Assembly (NCBI GenBank): GCA_027024625.1
Contig: JALVRY010000278.1
Location: 1 to 13,728 of the forward strand
DNA: 13,728 nucleotides
Reading direction: 5' to 3'
Source: Thiotrichaceae bacterium
Lineage (GTDB): Bacteria; Pseudomonadota; Gammaproteobacteria; Thiotrichales; Thiotrichaceae
The translations under genes and the position numbers were made by a program. The notes below the pieces were generated by a model. That model searched no databases and was not told the origin of the DNA. It saw only the letters and a list, made by a program, of their open reading frames with translations. Each line of letters starts with the position of its first letter. The first letter of the stretch is position 1. This document shows positions 2,522 to 12,006 of this stretch, in pieces.

Positions 2522-3013
2522 TTAACCGCCGCAGCCGCCAATTGTTACTTTAACATCTTTTGCCGCTTTAAACGTCTTGTCACCGGCAGTAACAAGAGCA
2601 ACAACAGATCCACTTTTACCCATTTTGATGCGTGTTGATGCAAATGCAACGACACCTTCACCAAGCTCAAATGAGCCAACTAGAGGGTCTGGGTTTTTAG
2701 GTGCAACTAATGTAATTTTTGTTGCACCTTCAATAGCAGACGCATCAACTGTAATTGGTACTACAGCTCCATTTTCTGCAACTTCTGGAGCTTTCAATTT
2801 GATTTGATCAGAGGCTTCTGCCGACTCGACAGTAGACATATCAAAACCAGAGCCTTTTTCACCTGCATCTGCTTTAGGGGCATCAGCAGCAGCTTCTTGC
2901 TTCTTTGCAGTATCATCTGCAAATAACATTGCAGGACTAAGTAGACCTGCACCTACTGCCAAGCTGGTAGCACCCGCTGACAATGTTCCTTTTACAAAAC
3001 TTCTTCGTTTCAT
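2522..3013 (-). CDS. soxY: SoxY, sulfur-carrier protein with C-terminal GGCGG
   Basis: SoxY covalently binds the sulfur intermediate through its C-terminal cysteine on a flexible arm. The product is 163 residues and ends exactly in GGCGG, with the carrier cysteine at residue 161. The N-terminus is a Tat signal (RRSFVKG, residues 3-9, then a hydrophobic segment to about residue 31). A low-complexity Ala/Lys/Glu/Asp linker (about 34-56) precedes the immunoglobulin-like carrier domain. The start at 3013 has a moderate GGAA ribosome-binding site. Order and spacing with soxZ are those of a soxYZ unit. A 254-bp gap separates it from soxK, so it may have its own promoter or mRNA-level control. Confidence 0.97.
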   Translation of the reverse strand: MKRRSFVKGTLSAGATSLAVGAGLLSPAMLFADDTAKKQEAAADAPKADAGEKGSGFDMSTVESAEASDQIKLKAPEVAENGAVVPITVDASAIEGATKITLVAPKNPDPLVGSFELGEGVVAFASTRIKMGKSGSVVALVTAGDKTFKAAKDVKVTIGGCGG

Positions 3014-3267: not shown

Positions 3268-3594
3268 CTATTCAGGTTCCTCTGTAAAGTAACTAGGAAA
3301 ATCTAGATTAGACTGAGCTTCCATTTGTGCTTTACCCGTTTCACCTTGAAAAGCTGCTTTATTGGCTAATTTTACCGCCTTGGCAAAATCACCTTCTTTT
3401 GCGGCTTCGTCAGCCTTTTTAAGAAGTTTACCAACGTCTCTCCATTCACCACCTACTGCAGCAGCAGCTTTTTGATTTGCTGTTGCTGTTTCTAAAGCAG
3501 CCTTATAAGTATCAGCTGTCTCTTCTGCAAACACGCTGGCGGCAAAGCTACTAGCGACTGTAAAAACAGAAAGTATTAATACCTTTTTTAACAT
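3268..3594 (-). CDS. soxK: SoxK, SoxXA-binding protein
   Basis: SoxK-type proteins bind the SoxXA cytochrome and are found in species with short SoxA forms, where they stabilise or complete the complex. The 108-residue product has a Sec signal peptide (residues 1 to about 23, ending VFA). The mature part is small and Ala/Lys-rich, with a helical-looking segment around EWRDVGKLLKKADEAAKEGDFAKAVKLANKAAFQGE, interrupted here only for reference, which is characteristic of the family. No heme motif or cysteine is present. The start at 3594 has GGAG about eight bases upstream, and that site overlaps the soxA stop region. Only 12 bp separate soxA and soxK. Assignment rests on sequence character plus position behind soxXA. 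Confidence 0.85.
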   Translation of the reverse strand: MLKKVLILSVFTVASSFAASVFAEETADTYKAALETATANQKAAAAVGGEWRDVGKLLKKADEAAKEGDFAKAVKLANKAAFQGETGKAQMEAQSNLDFPSYFTEEPE

Positions 3595-3606: not shown

Positions 3607-4440
3607 TTATTTTCGTGCACTAGGGCCATTAAGCTCTAAGCCATTGCTCATATAAGTTAAGAAATACTCTAGATCACGGTATTCCTCACCTTGGGCTTTA
3701 AATGGTTTTGCTCTAACTTGCTTATTACAACCTGTAAAGCGACGATGTAACGTACCCATGCCCCCCCACTTAGAACGATAAACAGGGAAACCTGTAGGCT
3801 GCCCATAAGCAGGACTTAGGACATCTGCTCGAATTTTATTCCCCGCATTCATTGCATGACAACCCGCACAAGACATATTCAACTGACCACGTTTAGCTAA
3901 CCAAAAATCTTTACCTTTTTGATAAGCTTCAAGCGCCTTTGGATCATCAGGAATTTCAACATTAATCTTTTGGCCACGAGATTCGTATGCTATGTATCCA
4001 AGAATATTATTAATTTTTCCTTTTTTATACTTTAGCTTCTCTTCACCATTGGCTTCTAAGCAGTTATTAATCGCAAGTGGAAGCGTCATTACCATACCCT
4101 TCTCTTTATCCCAGTGAGGGAACTTACTGGCAATTGCTGGTCCATCAGGAAAACAATCTTTATATGTTTTACCGTTTTTGAATGGCTTCTCCCACATTTC
4201 CTTACCCGCATCAACAACAGGCTCGTATGGAGGAAATTCTTCAATGGCTTCCCAACTTTCACGACCTACTGGATCAACAGCATAAACACCATTGGCAAAC
4301 TCTTGCTCAGCAACATCTGGAAACTTTTTCTTAAAGAAATCTTGGAATACTTTTAAATCATCTGCTGGAGCTGCTTGAACACTGGCAGACAAGCCTACAG
4401 TCAAACAAACACCGAGGATTAGGGGTAGTTTTTTCATCAT
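3607..4440 (-). CDS. soxA: SoxA, c-type cytochrome subunit of SoxXA (single heme motif)
   Basis: SoxA with SoxX forms the periplasmic cytochrome that oxidatively couples thiosulfate to the SoxY cysteine. The product is 277 residues with a Sec signal peptide (about 1-24). It has one CxxCH heme-binding motif, CAGCH (191-195), and a downstream cysteine in FTGCNK (C238) at the expected position of the axial, persulfide-forming catalytic ligand. Two further cysteines, C96 and C127, occupy the N-terminal domain, where diheme SoxA forms carry another heme; here they more likely form a disulfide. This is the monoheme SoxA type, consistent with the adjacent soxK. The start at 4440 has AGGAG seven bases upstream; soxX ends 15 bp before it. 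Confidence 0.96.
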   Translation of the reverse strand: MMKKLPLILGVCLTVGLSASVQAAPADDLKVFQDFFKKKFPDVAEQEFANGVYAVDPVGRESWEAIEEFPPYEPVVDAGKEMWEKPFKNGKTYKDCFPDGPAIASKFPHWDKEKGMVMTLPLAINNCLEANGEEKLKYKKGKINNILGYIAYESRGQKINVEIPDDPKALEAYQKGKDFWLAKRGQLNMSCAGCHAMNAGNKIRADVLSPAYGQPTGFPVYRSKWGGMGTLHRRFTGCNKQVRAKPFKAQGEEYRDLEYFLTYMSNGLELNGPSARK

Positions 4441-4455
4441 ATTACAGCTCCTGAA

Positions 4456-4827
4456 TTATAGTGATGAAATAAATTCAACGACTTTGTCTATTTCTTTATC
4501 TGAAAGAATCTTATGCTTTCCAAATGGAGGCATTAAGGTATCAGGATTTGCAACTTGAGCATCCCAAATTTGAGCACGTAATTTAGCTTTATCAGGAAAT
4601 CTTGCTGACATGGCTACAAGCTCTGGAGCAATATTACCTGCCATATCGCCACCTGCAATCTGATGGCAAGCAAGGCAATTTCCTTTTTTTCTATCAAATG
4701 CAAGTTCTTTACCTGTCATCTCTGCTTTTTTATCGCCAGCTGTTGCTACAGCAGTAAGCGACATCGCAGAAAACATAACGGCAGGAGCAATCCCAAGCAC
4801 CGCTAGTTTACGTAGTGAGTTATTCAT
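4456..4827 (-). CDS. soxX: SoxX, c-type cytochrome subunit of SoxXA
   Basis: SoxX is the monoheme electron-accepting subunit that passes electrons from SoxA towards respiratory cytochromes. From the chosen start the product is 123 residues. It has a Sec signal peptide (1-30, ending ATA), one heme motif CLACH (51-55) followed by QIAGG, and a likely axial Met in LMPPFGKH (M99). The start at 4827 is preferred over an in-frame ATG at 4869 because it places the signal peptide at the N-terminus and has AGGAGG upstream, although the spacing (12 nt) is somewhat long. It is the first gene of the soxXAK run and probably of the wider sox operon. Confidence 0.95.
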   Translation of the reverse strand: MNNSLRKLAVLGIAPAVMFSAMSLTAVATAGDKKAEMTGKELAFDRKKGNCLACHQIAGGDMAGNIAPELVAMSARFPDKAKLRAQIWDAQVANPDTLMPPFGKHKILSDKEIDKVVEFISSL

Positions 4828-4936
4828 TTTTATGTACACCCTCCTAAGAAATAAATGTGGTCGCTGCATAGCTCAGAGAACGGATTGAGAGAGTCATGTA
4901 GCAACCGACCTAAACTGATAACGACAAATACGTCTT

Positions 4937-4965
4937 GTTATCAATAGCTAGGAATAATAAAACAA
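4937..4965 (-). promoter_or_regulatory. possible promoter of the soxXAK operon
   Basis: On the minus strand TTGTTT (4960-4965) and GATAAC (4937-4942) are spaced by 17 bp. A transcript starting near 4930 would have a leader of about 100 nt before soxX. The boxes are weak matches to the sigma70 consensus, as often seen for activator-dependent promoters. Two dyad sites lie upstream of it (5004-5019 and 5086-5106). Confidence 0.35.
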
Positions 4966-5003
4966 GTGGTGAGATAAACAATTGGAAGATGTGCCGAGCT
5001 GCA

Positions 5004-5019
5004 TTGGGGTTTTCCCTAA
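5004..5019. promoter_or_regulatory. dyad TTGGGG-TTTT-CCCTAA, candidate regulator site
   Basis: A 16-bp imperfect inverted repeat with six-base arms (one G/T mismatch) around TTTT. It is followed on the plus strand by a further CCCTTA at 5021-5026, so CCCTAA/CCCTTA occurs twice about 8 bp apart. Its centre lies about 50 bp upstream of the candidate soxX -35 box, a usual distance for an activator site. The assignment is by position and symmetry only. Confidence 0.4.
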
Positions 5020-5085
5020 TCCCTTAGCTTATTTGTTAGATTTATAATTGATTATTAAGAATAATTTTAAGCAATTCAGTGTGTT

Positions 5086-5106
5086 TTTGGAGGCACTGCC
5101 ACCAAA
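5086..5106. promoter_or_regulatory. 21-bp near-perfect palindrome upstream of soxX, candidate operator
   Basis: The arms TTTGGAGGCA and TGCCACCAAA flank a central C. Nine of ten base pairs match and the only mismatch is at the fifth arm position counted from the centre. A one-base spacer cannot form an RNA hairpin loop, so this is best read as a binding site for a dimeric protein. It lies about 260 bp upstream of the soxX start and about 100 bp beyond the response-regulator stop. No second copy was noticed in the window. The FixJ-type regulator encoded next door is one candidate ligand; another DNA-binding protein is equally possible. Confidence 0.5.
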
Positions 5107-5203
5107 TACTAACTAAATACCACCCTAAAAATTAGAGCTACATTTTGAGGCAAAATACAGACGGACACATACATCAAACAGCCTTCCCTCTTTGATCAAG
5201 CAG

Positions 5204-5830
5204 CTAAGCAATATTTACAGTCAAAACCATTCTCATTAAGTCAGACAAAGAAGAAGCTTCCATTTTTTCCATCACTCTTGAGCGATGTACTTCTACTGTG
5301 GATTGTGAAATGTGTAATTCATCCGCAATAATTTTATTGCGATGACCTTTCACGACAAGATCTAGAACTTCTCTCTCCCTTGGCGTCAGGCGCTCCATCT
5401 TATGTTTAATTTCAGCATGTTTTTGTGCCTTACCACGCTGCTGTTCATCCACTTCAATGGCTCTATAAACACTATCCAACAACACCTGATCATTAAAAGG
5501 CTTTTGAATAAAGTCAATTGCACCTGCTTTGATTGCTTTGACTGCCATCGGAACATCTCCGTGTCCCGTAATAAAAATAATAGGCGGATGAATCACTTGC
5601 TCAGCAAGATGCTCTTGCAACATCAAGCCACTCATACCCTTCATTCTGATATCCAAAATAATACAACCAGGGCGAGAAAGATCAAAGCTATCAGAAAATA
5701 TCTCCGCAGATGAATAAGTCTCTGCCTGTAACCCCACAGACTCCATTAAAAACGCGATCGCATCTCTTACTTCATCATCATCATCAATAATGAATATTAT
5801 AGGCTCTCTATTTAATTGTTCTGCATTCAT
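5204..5830 (-). CDS. FixJ/NarL-type response regulator (TtrR/ThsR-like)
   Basis: A two-component response regulator that would bind DNA after phosphorylation by the adjacent kinase. The 208-residue product has an N-terminal receiver domain (about 10-125) with acidic residues D16-D18, phospho-acceptor D60 in CIILDIRM, T88 in FITGHGDVPMAV and K110 in QKPF. A short linker leads to a LuxR/FixJ helix-turn-helix (about 147-205: LTPREREVLDLV, then ISQSTVEVHRSRVM). This domain order is that of FixJ, TtrR and related regulators. Its ATG overlaps the kinase stop by four bases (ATGA), indicating translational coupling. The 376-bp region after its stop leads to soxX in the same direction, with no clear terminator, so read-through into sox is possible. 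The sox genes are the inferred targets. Confidence 0.93.
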   Translation of the reverse strand: MNAEQLNREPIIFIIDDDDEVRDAIAFLMESVGLQAETYSSAEIFSDSFDLSRPGCIILDIRMKGMSGLMLQEHLAEQVIHPPIIFITGHGDVPMAVKAIKAGAIDFIQKPFNDQVLLDSVYRAIEVDEQQRGKAQKHAEIKHKMERLTPREREVLDLVVKGHRNKIIADELHISQSTVEVHRSRVMEKMEASSLSDLMRMVLTVNIA

Positions 5831-7965
5831 AATTTATTTTTAGTAGCTAATGTAAAATAGAAACTAGCTCCCTCTCCTTCGGAAGAGTCCACGTGCAACA
5901 TTGAATCGTGGCTTTCAATGATACTATAACTGATTGATAAACCTAAACCCATCCCCTCTGGCTTAGTAGTAACGAAAGGTGAAAAGATTTGTTCTGATAT
6001 ATCACTCGACAGACCAGGTCCTGTATCACTAATACGTATCTCTGCTAAGTCCTTTCCCTTAGGTGTCACCGCTATTTTAATACTAGCCACATCCTGTGTA
6101 TTTTTCATCGCATCAATCGCATTACGCACAAGATTTAAGATAACCTGTTCAATTTGAATATCTTGAGCAAAAACACACTTAACCCTACTGTCAATATGAG
6201 TCATTACATTAATATTATTTTTCTGAATTTCTACTTTCAAAAGTTCTAGTACTGTATTGATTATTTTAGAAATTTCAACTACTTGTTTATTTGAAGTTTC
6301 TTTATGTGCAAAGTGCCGGATATGACGAATGACCTCACCCGCACGCTCAGATTGCATTGCAATTTTTTCAACAACATCAGCACAGCGCTCCGTTTGTGGC
6401 TTGCCTGATTCAAGCATACGTACACAGGCTCTTGCATTCGTGGAAATTGCGGTGAGCGGCTGATTTAACTCATGTGCAATACTTGATGCAATTTCACCTA
6501 AGGTACTAAGGCGAGCCACGTGGTTAATTTGATTTTGATGCTCTTGACGCTTTTGTTCTACTCGGTTTCTCTCAGTAATATCACGGAAAACGACAACACT
6601 TCCTAATGTCTTACCCTTCTCATCTCGTATCGGTGTTGCACTATATTCAACTGGGAAACTTGTCCCATCTTTCTTCCAAAATACATCATCCGTAACAAAA
6701 CGAGGCTTATTATCTTTAAAAGTTAGATATACAGGACACTTATCTCTAGGATGATGACTACCATCACTATAGGTATGGTGAAGAATTTTATGCTGATTCT
6801 TGCCGATTAGGTCGCTGCTAGTCCAACCTGTTATCTTTTCCATAGCATGATTAATAAACGTAGAATTACCTTGAACATCCACCCCGTAAATTCCATCAGC
6901 TACAGAATCGAGAATTAATTTATTCTGACGCTCTAATGTCGCTTTTTCTCCTCTTAAATAACGATTTCGCTGTGTAACAAATATTGTAATAAACACCATG
7001 ACAACCAGTGCAAGCAAGCTAATCACTGCCCAGTACCAATACAGCTTTGCTGCTTCCCACAGGGTGAATTTTTCTTCATAAGGAGAAAGCCCCAGCTCTT
7101 TAAACAAATCATGAACAGGCTGATAGTCAAGTGGTACAGTCCAGCCTGAATAATTCCCTGATTTTGCAGCTGGATGGTTTTTAGGCATTTGCAATAAGGC
7201 AATGGCAACATCTTGAGCCAATCGTGTCGATGTGTGTTGCAGCCTACTGAAAGGCCATTCAGGATAAAGGCGTGTACTATGTATAAAAGGAAATTTCTTA
7301 TCCTGCCTTTGGTTTAATATTCGAAAATCTCCCTTCTTTATTATACCTGCAGTGATCATCCGCTCTAAAATATCTGTTCTTACTGTTCCTGCATCAACTT
7401 CCCCCTTGATGACAGACATCACAACATGATCATGTGTTTCACCAAATTGAACCGATTTGAAGTCACTATAGGGGCTTATGCCTTGAGCATTGAATTCTCT
7501 CCATGCCATTTGAAAACCTCCTAGAGAGGTTTTATCAACCGCCATAAAGGATTTCCCCACTATATCTTCCAATGAATTCATTTCGGGGTGTTTACTACTG
7601 GTAAATATTACCCCACCAAAAATATTATAAGGCTCATTTCCACGCCTATTATTCATTGTTGCCAAACGTGATACGCGATAGCGAACTTCGAGATTAACGT
7701 AAATCCCTGGATTCACTAGGATAAAGTCAACTTTCCCCTTCCCTACCGCATCATTAATTTCATCAAATTTTAAGGGTTGTATTTCAAAACAATAACCCGA
7801 TAGCTGTCGCGTTAGATATTCTGCTGTAGGCTTCCATGCTCTCTTTGTAATTTCATCACCACGATGGCTTAACACCCCAATTTTAATTACCTCTCCCTTC
7901 TCACAACCAACAGCTTGTGAAAAAAACAGAGAAAGAAAAAACATAAATAGGATTCTTTGCAACAT
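5827..7965 (-). CDS. PhnD-like/PAS sensor histidine kinase (TtrS/ThsS-like)
   Basis: A membrane-bound sensor kinase of 712 residues. Order: N-terminal signal/anchor (1-20); periplasmic phosphonate-binding-like (PhnD) domain (about 25-290, starting IKIGVLSHRG); transmembrane helix (about 311-331); PAS domain (about 345-465, ending FRDITERN); HisKA domain with phospho-acceptor H498 in AHELNQPLTAIS; HATPase with N-box NLVRNAIDAM (N615), G1 DTGPG (647-651) and GMGLGLSI (671-678). PhnD-like input coupled to a FixJ-type regulator is the arrangement of tetrathionate sensor TtrS and thiosulfate sensor ThsS. Next to sox genes, a thiosulfate or tetrathionate ligand is the natural inference, though not provable from sequence. 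The start at 7965 lacks a good Shine-Dalgarno. A second Met at residue 8 would shorten the signal peptide and lose its basic residue. Confidence 0.93.
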   Translation of the reverse strand: MLQRILFMFFLSLFFSQAVGCEKGEVIKIGVLSHRGDEITKRAWKPTAEYLTRQLSGYCFEIQPLKFDEINDAVGKGKVDFILVNPGIYVNLEVRYRVSRLATMNNRRGNEPYNIFGGVIFTSSKHPEMNSLEDIVGKSFMAVDKTSLGGFQMAWREFNAQGISPYSDFKSVQFGETHDHVVMSVIKGEVDAGTVRTDILERMITAGIIKKGDFRILNQRQDKKFPFIHSTRLYPEWPFSRLQHTSTRLAQDVAIALLQMPKNHPAAKSGNYSGWTVPLDYQPVHDLFKELGLSPYEEKFTLWEAAKLYWYWAVISLLALVVMVFITIFVTQRNRYLRGEKATLERQNKLILDSVADGIYGVDVQGNSTFINHAMEKITGWTSSDLIGKNQHKILHHTYSDGSHHPRDKCPVYLTFKDNKPRFVTDDVFWKKDGTSFPVEYSATPIRDEKGKTLGSVVVFRDITERNRVEQKRQEHQNQINHVARLSTLGEIASSIAHELNQPLTAISTNARACVRMLESGKPQTERCADVVEKIAMQSERAGEVIRHIRHFAHKETSNKQVVEISKIINTVLELLKVEIQKNNINVMTHIDSRVKCVFAQDIQIEQVILNLVRNAIDAMKNTQDVASIKIAVTPKGKDLAEIRISDTGPGLSSDISEQIFSPFVTTKPEGMGLGLSISYSIIESHDSMLHVDSSEGEGASFYFTLATKNKL

Positions 7966-8028
7966 ATATAAAGAGTTTGGAGATTAAAAGAGATGGGATA
8001 CTAAAAGTATTATAGAGGAAGATCACGC

Positions 8029-8332: not shown

Positions 8333-8968
8333 TTATCTCCGCCTTCTACCAAATGAGAAACCACGGCGCTTACGCGGTTGTTGTGTGCGAGGTTTTGGTT
8401 TTGCCGGTTGTTGAACACTAGGCTTCGGACGTGGCTTGACCGTTTTTGAAATCGCCGCAGCAGGTCGAGTCGCTGCCTGCTGACGTTGTTTGAAATTTGA
8501 ATTGCGTGATAATTTGTTAGCGAGCATTCCGCCAATAAGAGAACCAGCAGCAGATGCCAATATCATCTCACCTAAACCCAGACCAGAAGACGCCTCTGCT
8601 GAGGTTTCTTGAATCAAAGCAGAACTTCCATCTTCAACCTTTTTAGCTTCTGCTTCTGCTAAAGCTTTAAGCTCTTCGTTGCTCATCACAACTTCCGTAC
8701 CATCCAACTTTTTAAGTACGGCTCGAGTTGAACCTGTGGTTTCGTGCCTTTCTGCTAAAACATATTTATCAGGATTACTAGCCGTTTGTTCAATCACAAG
8801 AAAGTAGTTCTGCTCTTGCAAATCTGCTTGGAGCGTTTCTAAATTTTCGGCATCACTCTGTTGATTTGCATCTTGAGAACCACCGCACCCTTGTAAACTT
8901 GCCAATAAAACAAGTCCAAATCCAAGAGCAACAGCCTTTACATTCTTATTTTTTCCAAACGTCTTCAT
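8333..8968 (-). CDS. putative lipoprotein of unknown function with glycine-zipper and Arg-rich C-terminus
   Basis: I do not recognise this family. The 211-residue product begins with a basic N-terminus and hydrophobic stretch ending LASLQGC, a plausible lipobox with the lipidated cysteine at residue 28. Residue 29 is Gly, not Asp, which would favour outer-membrane sorting. The mature part has an acidic region (about 31-120, Glu/Gln-rich), then a Gly/Ala/Leu-rich segment (about 129-150, GLGLGEMI to GSLIGGMLANKL) like a glycine-zipper membrane or oligomerisation segment. The last 35 residues are Pro/Lys/Arg/Gln-rich (repeats of KPRPKP type) and end in FGRRRR. Such a basic tail suggests binding to polyanions such as peptidoglycan-linked polymers, LPS or nucleic acid, but this is speculative. 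The start at 8968 has a weak GGG site inside a small hairpin. It lies 43 bp behind the small secreted-protein gene. Confidence 0.75.
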   Translation of the reverse strand: MKTFGKNKNVKAVALGFGLVLLASLQGCGGSQDANQQSDAENLETLQADLQEQNYFLVIEQTASNPDKYVLAERHETTGSTRAVLKKLDGTEVVMSNEELKALAEAEAKKVEDGSSALIQETSAEASSGLGLGEMILASAAGSLIGGMLANKLSRNSNFKQRQQAATRPAAAISKTVKPRPKPSVQQPAKPKPRTQQPRKRRGFSFGRRRR

Positions 8969-9011: not shown

Positions 9012-9320
9012 TTACTTTGCAGTGCAAGCGTAACGAATATATTTAAACTCTCCCGTTGTCGTAATCATCTTAACAATATGACAATTTGGAAAACCTGGCT
9101 TCGCTGTACGCTTGGTATAAATAATACGTCCTTTATGCAGTTTTTTGACAGCTGTTTTTACTTGCAGTGTCGATAGATGACCTGTGGATGTGTCTGGAAT
9201 GTTAACAGTTGCTGCTTGTGCAACGCCCGCAGACCACATGAAGGTTGTAAGAATAGATGCTTTTGTTGCAGACACAATAAAACGACGCACGGATTGACGT
9301 GCATTAATACTAAAGCCCAT
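9012..9320 (-). CDS. small secreted protein of unknown function
   Basis: Not recognised with confidence. The 102-residue product has a signal peptide of about 36 residues (basic n-region with VRR, hydrophobic core, AQA before the likely cut). The mature part, about 66 residues, has two cysteines (C80 and C99) that could form a disulfide. The segment around GRIIYTKR to HIVKMITTTGEFKYIRYAC has the rhythm of a PepSY-like strand pattern, a weak resemblance only. The start at 9320 has GGGGA at about six bases. It is followed 43 bp later by the lipoprotein gene on the same strand, so the two may form an operon of exported proteins. Confidence 0.7.
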   Translation of the reverse strand: MGFSINARQSVRRFIVSATKASILTTFMWSAGVAQAATVNIPDTSTGHLSTLQVKTAVKKLHKGRIIYTKRTAKPGFPNCHIVKMITTTGEFKYIRYACTAK

Positions 9321-10801: not shown

Positions 10802-10832
10802 TTCAGTTTTGATGCTATCATTAGGAGGCGTT

Positions 10833-10874
10833 GTGGCAAGAATGCTACACCGTATTATTTTTACACATATATGA
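10833..10874 (+). CDS. possible 13-codon leader ORF upstream of the protease gene
   Basis: A perfect AGGAGG (10823-10828) stands four bases before GTG 10833, which opens a 13-codon frame (MARMLHRIIFTHI) ending at TGA 10874. The same Shine-Dalgarno is too close (2 nt) to the TTG at 10831 that would give the protease a 34-residue N-terminal extension. The ORF ends 58 bp before the protease ATG. It could be a leader peptide or a relic of an older start site. Evidence is a single motif, so confidence is low. Confidence 0.25.
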   Translation: MARMLHRIIFTHI

Positions 10875-10932
10875 TGTTTTTTGGCAAAGCTACTGTTTAA
10901 CAGGGCAAACTTGTCTTTGTGGGGTTTTAGGT

Positions 10933-12006
10933 ATGATTGTACAACATATCATTCAGCGTTCATTCTACTGCATTGCTTTACTAAGTATAAGCACCATCAG
11001 TGCCTGCTCAATAACCATAACCCCGGGCTTTGGCAAAGCTAGCCATCAAACATCTACCGCCCCAATGCTTAGAGGTGTATTACCCGCTGTTGTTAACGTC
11101 TTTTCTGAAGGAAAGAATGTCAACTGCACGAGATTTCTACCCAAAAATCCCAAGATAAGGAAGCAGTTTGAACTTGATAAAAACCCTCTGGAAAAATGCA
11201 TGGAGCAAAGCCAAGGCTCCGGCGTTATTATCGATGCAAAAAAGGGCTTAATCGTAACGAATTATCATAATGTAGAAAATGCTCAGCGAACAATCATTAC
11301 ATTGCAAGATAGACGACAGGTTAATGCAAAAATTGTAGGCACTGATCCTGAAACTGACCTCGCCCTACTTAAAATTACTGCCAAAAAATTATCTGCTCTA
11401 CCTTTAACAAATGCTGACAAACAACTTGAGACAGGTGATTTTCTTGTCGCCATTGGTAGCCCCTTTGGTTTAGATCACAGTGTTTCATTTGGTATTGTCA
11501 GCGCATTAGGACGCTCAGGTTTAGGCTTGGAAGGTTATGAAGATTTCATTCAAACAGATGCCGCTATTAATGTAGGGAATTCGGGTGGTGCAATTGTCTC
11601 CATGAATGGCAAGCTTGTTGGTATCAGTAGTGCAATTGTTGGCGCTAATAACAGTAATACAGGTATAGGGTTTGCTATACCTGGCAGCATGGCTAAAGCC
11701 GTTGTCGAACAGCTTGCAAAATATGGCGAGGTTAAGCGCGGTCAAATAGGCATTATGATCGATGACATAATGCTTGATGATAAAATTAGAGCCGTCATCA
11801 CCACTGTACTTACAGACTCACCTGCTGATAAAGCGGGCTTGAAAGCAGGCGATATTGTTCTGACTTACAATGGCGAAGCCGTTTATGGATCGAACAAATT
11901 GCATAACGCCCTAGGACTTATGCGGGTTGGTGAAAAAGTCACCTTGGGTATCCTTCGGAATCACAAGCATAAAACCATCAGCGTTGTTCTTGGCATGCGA
12001 GTCTAA
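10933..12006 (+). CDS. HtrA/Deg-family serine protease with one PDZ domain, putative lipoprotein
   Basis: A periplasmic S1C protease, probably for degrading or sensing damaged envelope proteins. From ATG 10933 the product is 357 residues. The trypsin-like domain (about 45-260) shows the catalytic triad H112 (VTNYHNV), D142 (DPETDLALLKI) and S217 (NVGNSGGAI). One PDZ domain follows (about 270-355, SPADKAGLKAGDIVLTYNG). One PDZ and the length resemble DegS or short DegQ-like enzymes more than two-PDZ DegP. The N-terminus has a hydrophobic stretch ending TISAC, a lipobox-like site with C25, suggesting membrane anchoring through lipid rather than a DegS-type helix. Two further cysteines (C65, C89) flank a Lys-rich loop. 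A frame extension to TTG 10831 is judged unlikely because it adds Trp/Cys/Tyr-rich sequence before the signal. It converges on the Sel1 gene, 80 bp away, with no clear terminator between. Confidence 0.9.
   Translation: MIVQHIIQRSFYCIALLSISTISACSITITPGFGKASHQTSTAPMLRGVLPAVVNVFSEGKNVNCTRFLPKNPKIRKQFELDKNPLEKCMEQSQGSGVIIDAKKGLIVTNYHNVENAQRTIITLQDRRQVNAKIVGTDPETDLALLKITAKKLSALPLTNADKQLETGDFLVAIGSPFGLDHSVSFGIVSALGRSGLGLEGYEDFIQTDAAINVGNSGGAIVSMNGKLVGISSAIVGANNSNTGIGFAIPGSMAKAVVEQLAKYGEVKRGQIGIMIDDIMLDDKIRAVITTVLTDSPADKAGLKAGDIVLTYNGEAVYGSNKLHNALGLMRVGEKVTLGILRNHKHKTISVVLGMRV

Follow-up and report, generated by a model that had tools for sequence, protein, structure and literature searches.

TtrS-TtrR, the two-component system of tetrathionate respiration in Salmonella, Vibrio and Shewanella baltica, joins a kinase with a PhnD-like sensor domain to a FixJ-type response regulator. 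In V. parahaemolyticus, TtrRS responds to tetrathionate, and the TtrR box, GTGG-N4-CCAC, is located just upstream of the -35 element, occurs also at tsdBA and is needed for TtrR binding and activation, as established by electrophoretic mobility shift assays and deletion (PMC11293645). ThsSR of Shewanella halifaxensis, which adjoins thiosulfate reductase genes (PhsAB/PsrC), was shown to be a thiosulfate sensor, and a survey in the same report of 131 PhnD-type kinases adjacent to a regulator placed 13 of these two-component systems by predicted thiosulfate-use genes (PMC5408782). Here we describe a kinase-regulator pair that precedes a sox operon in a Thiotrichaceae bacterium, on contig JALVRY010000278.1 (13,728 bp, C278 in our numbering, hereafter the window). 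The draft assembly totals 2.61 Mb in 490 contigs, with 83% completeness and 6.6% contamination. We consider it likely that this two-component system is related to TtrSR, that it controls thiosulfate oxidation and that it activates soxXAKYZB directly via a box at 5001-5022. The proposal is built on sequence: protein domains, gene order, a recurring box, its recurring spacing from the promoter and its likeness to the verified TtrR box.

Control of sox by its sulfur substrate has been reported with quite different proteins. In Hyphomicrobium it involves SoxR and sHdrR, ArsR-type repressors sensing sulfane sulfur (PMC12423496, PMC11582611), whereas the window encodes a membrane sensor and what would be an activator. 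Closer in layout is TspS-TspR of Acidithiobacillus caldus, a proposed thiosulfate sensor also encoded upstream of sox (sox-II); TspR, however, is sigma54-dependent, with the upstream activating sequence TGTCCCAAATGGGACA, and is not of FixJ type (PMC6335251). Finally, LuxR and histidine kinase genes were noted beside sox in Sedimenticola, Thiohalomonadales and Thiodiazotropha lucinid symbionts, with the LuxR related to quorum sensing (PMC11237559). Judging from the same gene order and from Sedimenticola among the hosts, these are very likely the same system as that of the window; the sections of that report at hand do not describe sensor type, box or regulon.

In the window, a sensor histidine kinase of 712 aa (5827-7965, minus strand) and a FixJ/TtrR-type response regulator of 208 aa (5204-5830, minus strand) were assigned from open reading frame (ORF) calls and Pfam/NCBIfam models. 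The kinase stop and regulator start overlap in ATGA (minus-strand bases 5830-5827), and soxX, soxA, soxK, soxY, soxZ and soxB follow in this order on the same strand, so that soxXA, soxYZ and soxB, which define membership of a sox cluster, are all present. A preliminary description of this DNA had pointed out the overlap and the common strand with soxXAK, which the ORFs and the overlap bases bear out, and had seen no clear terminator before sox; a simple scan of 4700-5300 likewise returned none between regulator and soxX. The kinase would start with a signal or transmembrane helix, followed by a periplasmic PhnD-like domain (residues ~24-300; PF12974 Phosphonate-bd at 29-276, 145 bits) and a second membrane helix (~310-335), before PAS (349-463), HisKA (489-556) and HATPase_c (603-707) domains. 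Pfam gives the regulator a Response_reg domain and a GerE (LuxR/GerE-type helix-turn-helix) domain; its matches are of receiver and helix-turn-helix type only, with no sigma54-interaction domain among them. Among curated models, the sensor half matches TtrS best and the regulator FixJ/TtrR, in each case under the cut-off. Differences from TtrS-TtrR include the added PAS domain, the length of the kinase (712 aa against a model of 555 positions) and the neighbourhood, sox oxidation genes instead of ttrABC: no ttr reductase model is listed among the 13 window proteins scanned.

The interval 4828-5203, which the preliminary description had named for footprinting, contains a TtrR-box-like dyad, TTAGGG-AAAA-CCCCAA, and the same dyad stands before soxX, soxB and soxY elsewhere. 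This predicted regulator binding site of 22 bp (5001-5022, minus strand), GGATTAGGGAAAACCCCAATGC with the core TTAGGGAAAACCCCAA, scores 24.2 bits. It is the sole site above 12 bits in the window and has the top score among 25 loci from a genome-wide pattern scan of the window's genome. Scores come from a position weight matrix, which superseded early fixed-gap dyad counts and was trained on 25 stretches upstream of sox in pair-bearing loci by a palindromic search seeded with the observed dyad. The resulting motif, TATTGGGG-TATA-CCCCAATA, holds 18.7 bits of information. The same motif was reached from 150 random starts, with a log-likelihood of 153.0, as against 34.5-37.3 for four shuffled sets and 56.0-60.6 for four control sets of 25 other upstream regions.

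When each region was left out in turn, 19 of the 25 retained a site whose score no more than one of 300 shuffles attained, and no strong site was found in the other six (L027, L032 soxB, L058, L059 twice and L068; L and G numbers designate loci and genomes of our set). In L058 and L068 a site (21.6 and 22.7 bits) lies just beyond the scored stretch and overlaps the regulator gene at its end. Also beyond the stretch, L027 has a 23.2-bit site immediately after the regulator gene; 1.5 kb and another ORF separate this site from soxB. A matrix made from eight soxB regions alone (consensus TATTGTGG-TATA-CCACAATA) recovers most soxX and soxY sites, including soxX sites away from the pair in G001, G002, G006 and G012, each reached by 0-3 of 500 shuffles; the weakest is L037 soxY (12 of 500). 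Conversely, six soxX regions alone are enough to recover soxB and soxY sites, which at most 2 of 500 shuffles reach. Neither of these matrices gives a site in L059 (two regions), L032 soxB or the L027 soxB stretch. Common ancestry accounts for some of the similarity of these regions between closely related species, but it does not explain the recurrence across soxX, soxB and soxY promoters.

Spacing from box to promoter recurs as well. Alignment of 27 promoters on the box reveals a second conserved element between box and promoter, with a consensus of about RTATNYNCCAATT at offsets 9-21 from the box and a T at offset 20 in 25 of the 27. Its window counterpart is ACATCTTCCAATT (4980-4992, minus strand); the element is perhaps a degenerate second half-site. 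A -10 hexamer with at least 5/6 TATAAT matches stands at offset 43 in 10 of the 27 promoters, the maximum over offsets in 500 shuffled sets being 4, and at offset 42 in three. In the window, the alignment places a -10-like hexamer, TATTAT (5/6; 4954-4959, minus strand), at offset 42, and the conserved spacing points to a weak -35-like hexamer, TTGTTT (3/6; 4976-4981, minus strand), which a simple scan does not find. This poor -35 would explain why such a scan gave no ordinary sigma70 promoter between regulator and soxX, and it fits an activator-dependent promoter. The centre of the box lies ~65 bp upstream of the predicted transcription start. From the regulator, the gap measures 334 bp to the soxX ORF start, or 376 bp if counted to the ATG at 4827, the likely start; a promoter of its own is predicted within it, so that there is no need to suppose a joint transcript with the regulator.

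According to the mechanism that we propose, the periplasmic PhnD-like domain would bind a sulfur oxyanion, most likely thiosulfate and next tetrathionate. The kinase would then autophosphorylate on His498, its presumed phospho-acceptor, and pass the phosphate to the receiver residue Asp60 of the regulator. A phosphorylated regulator dimer would bind the dyad, which adjoins a predicted promoter whose -35 is poor, and activate soxXAKYZB.

The candidate site resembles the box of the homologous regulator. The window version, AGGG-AAAA-CCCC, has the core GG-N4-CC in common with the TtrR box, and four sites in relatives (L030, L056, L312 and L313) are exactly GTGG-AAAA-CCAC. At a ttr locus, L359, the best site of the sox-trained matrix in 18 kb is GATATGTGGAAAACCACAATAC (15.7 bits), again GTGG-AAAA-CCAC, and the soxB-only matrix finds it too; it is flanked by a TtrS-like kinase, matched as far as ~9923, and by ttrC/ttrA on the other strand. 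Reference kinases were taken from a search of 369 genomes of the class with the TtrS model, which scored at most three candidates per genome and, among the matches listed, gave two at E <= 1e-70; the window's kinase is not among them, and the count is no gauge of TtrS frequency. Both adjoin ttr genes and neither exceeds the model's cut-off.

Conservation of the kinase-regulator-sox order across genomes had been put forward as a check, and the order recurs in several families of Gammaproteobacteria. In a search of 57 genomes, the window's own included, the kinase was found in 16 at the threshold for presence of at least 570 bits, the copy of G032 being split over two contigs. A tree of 41 PhnD-type kinases places that of the window in a clade of 30 members (fork support 93/89); ttr-linked sequences sit on long branches, and we make no claim on the branching order of sox-linked and ttr-linked kinases. 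According to the neighbourhoods of pair-bearing genomes and of named contigs, sox genes adjoin the pair in 23 of the 30 members, which makes this neighbourhood more than chance; for G028 the linkage relies on a 175-bp overlap of two contig ends, with 174 identical positions. In the remaining seven (G001, G002, G011a, G016a, G034b, L053 and L060) no sox gene lies beside the pair, although a contig end is close to it in G002, G034b and L053. The non-sox neighbours scanned for these unlinked pairs show no common function (truD in G001, UbiA- and GtrA-type genes in G011, crotonase in G016).

The adjoining sox module varies. An operon led by soxX or soxA is found in the window, Sedimenticola selenatireducens L052, L054, L055, L058, L059, L061, L068 and G034; a divergent soxB in G006, G012, G014, G020, G026, L057, L059 and L061; soxB downstream of the pair in G022, G028 and L056; soxYZ in G004, G011b, G016b and G022b; and soxYZA..B in G049. 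Such a pairing, reassembled with different parts of the same pathway, carries more weight as evidence than one gene order passed on by descent. Four genomes (G011, G016, G022 and G034) each contain two paralogous kinases, and the copies adjacent to soxYZ fall within a five-member subclade (support 100/100) that also includes the unlinked G034b. As an observation apart, the duplication concerns the whole pair and is lineage-specific (L035, L036, L039 and L041 versus L027, L028, L029 and L032), one copy being mostly beside soxYZ and the other beside soxB or soxXAK or unlinked.

The box tracks the pair among the sox units scored. In 24 genomes with sox and without the pair, none of 45 scored units reaches 14 bits (best 12.6); these 45 are not every sox unit, several weaker or extra sox matches being outside the count, and four units with less than 100 bp of upstream sequence were set aside. 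'Without the pair' here means no kinase match of at least 570 bits, more distant PhnD-type proteins being present in G008, G013, G017, G029, G036 and G054. The cleanest case is genus g5: where the pair is present (G006 and G012), boxes of 16.4-22.3 bits stand at soxX and soxB, and where it is absent (G017, G023, G029 and G035) the highest score is 7.2 bits. Boxes also occur at sox operons away from the pair, in G001 (20.6 bits), G002 (26.2), G006 (16.4) and G012 (19.2); for G001 and G002, a strict 18-base pattern has one match each, both upstream of soxX.

Several observations speak against this interpretation. The kinase reaches 305.7 bits with the TtrS model NF040750 (cut-off 750) and the regulator 185.1 bits with the TtrR model NF040749 (cut-off 290), both missed, as is the cut-off of FixJ NF006900 (232.8 of 255 bits); the two reference ttr-linked kinases also remain under the TtrS cut-off, with 529 and 274 bits. 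Most sites are training data, only the leave-one-out, cross-class and non-adjacent ones being independent, and that of G002 was first met via a pattern search. Some loci lack the box: none was found in Halochromatium L059, where the gene order is present, nor in pair-bearing G032 (soxB, 8.9 bits), and at a second ttr locus, L360, the best score, 12.2 bits, belongs to a site at the far end. Where kinase and soxB diverge, the kinase gene could be the one that the box serves. Within pair-bearing genomes, only five of 21 scored sox units have 14 bits or more, and of these the G028 unit is actually linked to the pair; many secondary sox units are therefore probably not targets. Looser patterns show little or no excess over the same patterns read backwards (30 versus 19 rows in the window's genome, 86 versus 81 in the 16 genomes), and the strict pattern gives 24 rows versus 10, seven of these 10 in G002; the box alone does not define the regulon.

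These figures bear directly on the idea that the dyad belongs to another regulator and that the pair acts on unrelated genes. Across the 16 genomes, the strict pattern occurs at 19 places in nine of them: seven lie upstream of sox, two of these being one site present on overlapping contigs, and the other 12, for which only the neighbouring ORFs were listed, are not known to do so; in addition, the window's own genome has a strong box beside genes of unknown role. We hold this explanation to be improbable, considering that sites track the pair among the units scored and are similar to a box verified for a homologous regulator. Still less credible is that the regulator is a quorum-sensing LuxR, as stated for the lucinid symbionts (PMC11237559): we would give this very little weight, because the protein has a phospho-receiver domain, FixJ/TtrR kinship and a gene overlapping that of the kinase, and the Pfam scan shows no autoinducer-binding domain.

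What the sensor binds is a separate question, for which the isolated PhnD-like domain is informative. With 154.3 bits it matches the TtrS model twice as well as the phosphonate-binding PhnD model (76.0) or the phosphate/phosphite/phosphonate subfamily (72.2), which goes against the kinship with phosphonate/phosphite sensors that the preliminary description had named as a refutation. Its predicted structure (mean predicted local distance difference test score 95.1) has as nearest PDB neighbours PtxB, ArrX and HtxB, periplasmic oxyanion binders, at TM-scores of ~0.7-0.8 and 18-21% identity. These neighbours might suggest a sensor of phosphonate, phosphite or another non-sulfur oxyanion, with sox adjacency incidental; the model scores, the repeated adjacency to different sox modules and the TtrR-box-like sites in sox promoters all make this quite unlikely. 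That the pair senses tetrathionate instead of thiosulfate, with sox induced by tetrathionate or a mixed polythionate pool, is a more serious though still unlikely alternative, in line with the TtrS model as best curated match and with the response and tsdBA box of the V. parahaemolyticus system (PMC11293645). The putative pocket, as aligned, argues otherwise: H34, S147 and H178 are present in 26 of the 30 clade members (exceptions are N34 in G016b and G022b, A147 and P178 in G011b, and G026, in whose predicted ORF position 34 is missing), as against Y/F, A and V/M in the two ttr-linked kinases. Nine other PhnD-type proteins have mostly F/N/W/Y, A/G and Q/L there, with H34 in G054 and H178 in G017. 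In PtxB and ArrX, the positions of S147 and H178 are occupied by a serine and a histidine, which we take to be residues that bind the oxyanion in PtxB/PhnD. With modest confidence, the pocket residues would point to a single sulfur oxyanion, for example thiosulfate, more than to tetrathionate. Sox itself oxidizes thiosulfate.

The analysis supports the interpretation in the preliminary description, which was largely right, and turns a guess from gene neighbourhood into a specific regulatory model. Its view of a less-described system stands only in part: LuxR/kinase adjacency to sox is in print (PMC11237559), as is the survey of 13 PhnD-type systems (PMC5408782); with ThsSR the window pair has in common a PhnD-like sensor kinase encoded by thiosulfate-use genes. 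The chief addition here is the TtrR-like box in sox promoters; the portions of the open-access literature searched describe neither a TtrR-type box in sox promoters nor a PhnD-type sensor beside sox. More tentatively, and we consider it somewhat less likely than not, the clade may be a separate thiosulfate-receptor family that branched off from sensors of TtrS type when the pocket changed to H34/S147/H178, driving sox via an inherited TtrR-type box and duplicated in one lineage, each copy taking a different sox module (soxB or soxXAK versus soxYZ).

If this tentative reading is true, sensors of a family familiar from the anaerobic reduction of sulfur compounds, found here beside the reverse, oxidative pathway, would be the general Sox switch in many Gammaproteobacteria, free-living and symbiotic. 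As we read the literature, little is known of thiosulfate sensing in gammaproteobacterial sulfur oxidizers, including chemosynthetic animal symbionts. The analysis supplies a candidate sensor, regulator, DNA site and promoter position, offers an alternative reading of the published quorum-sensing suggestion and indicates a natural source of new parts for thiosulfate/tetrathionate biosensors.

The sox genes of the window, all on the minus strand, were identified as follows: soxX (4456-4869, NCBIfam cut-off exceeded, AGGAGG before the likely start), soxA (3607-4440, TIGR04484, 238 bits, cut-off exceeded), soxK for a SoxAX-binding protein (SAXB; 3268-3594, NF052674, 78.7 bits, under the cut-off of 95), soxY (2522-3013, TIGR04488, 131.3 bits, cut-off exceeded), soxZ (2186-2497, TIGR04490, 132.8 bits, cut-off exceeded) and soxB (1-1899, its 3' end lost at the window edge, TIGR04486, 715.6 bits, cut-off 550). 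No Rfam element in the window is above gathering scores. Two small ORFs upstream of the kinase (8333-8968 and 9012-9320) also stand beside the pair in the genus mate L024 (G001, 6928-8012), in which sox is located elsewhere and truD comes directly after the regulator. A DegQ/DegP-type protease (Trypsin_2 and PDZ; 10831-12006, plus strand) is ordinary.

The second strong box of the window's genome, AAATTAGGGTATTCCCTAATAA (22.5 bits), lies at 15-36 of L187, at the start of contig C271, and the gene that it serves may be off the contig. Its neighbours are ORFs of unknown family, then polysaccharide-export-type ABC genes; no sulfur gene is among the neighbouring ORFs scanned. Close to a contig end, L073 has a PhnD-type pair that is more distantly related, with another box, of 19.6 bits (4702-4723), at the end of its regulator gene. 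In the PAS domain of the kinase, residues 395-413 contain a motif, LHHT..DGS..P...CPVY (His396, His397 and Cys410), conserved in two alignments; the kinase may receive a second input, of redox or metal type, from the cytoplasm. Many listed proteins carry the PhnD-like input domain fused to GGDEF domains (e.g. L080 9971-11563; P0121-P0240), and related sensing may feed cyclic-di-GMP signalling too.

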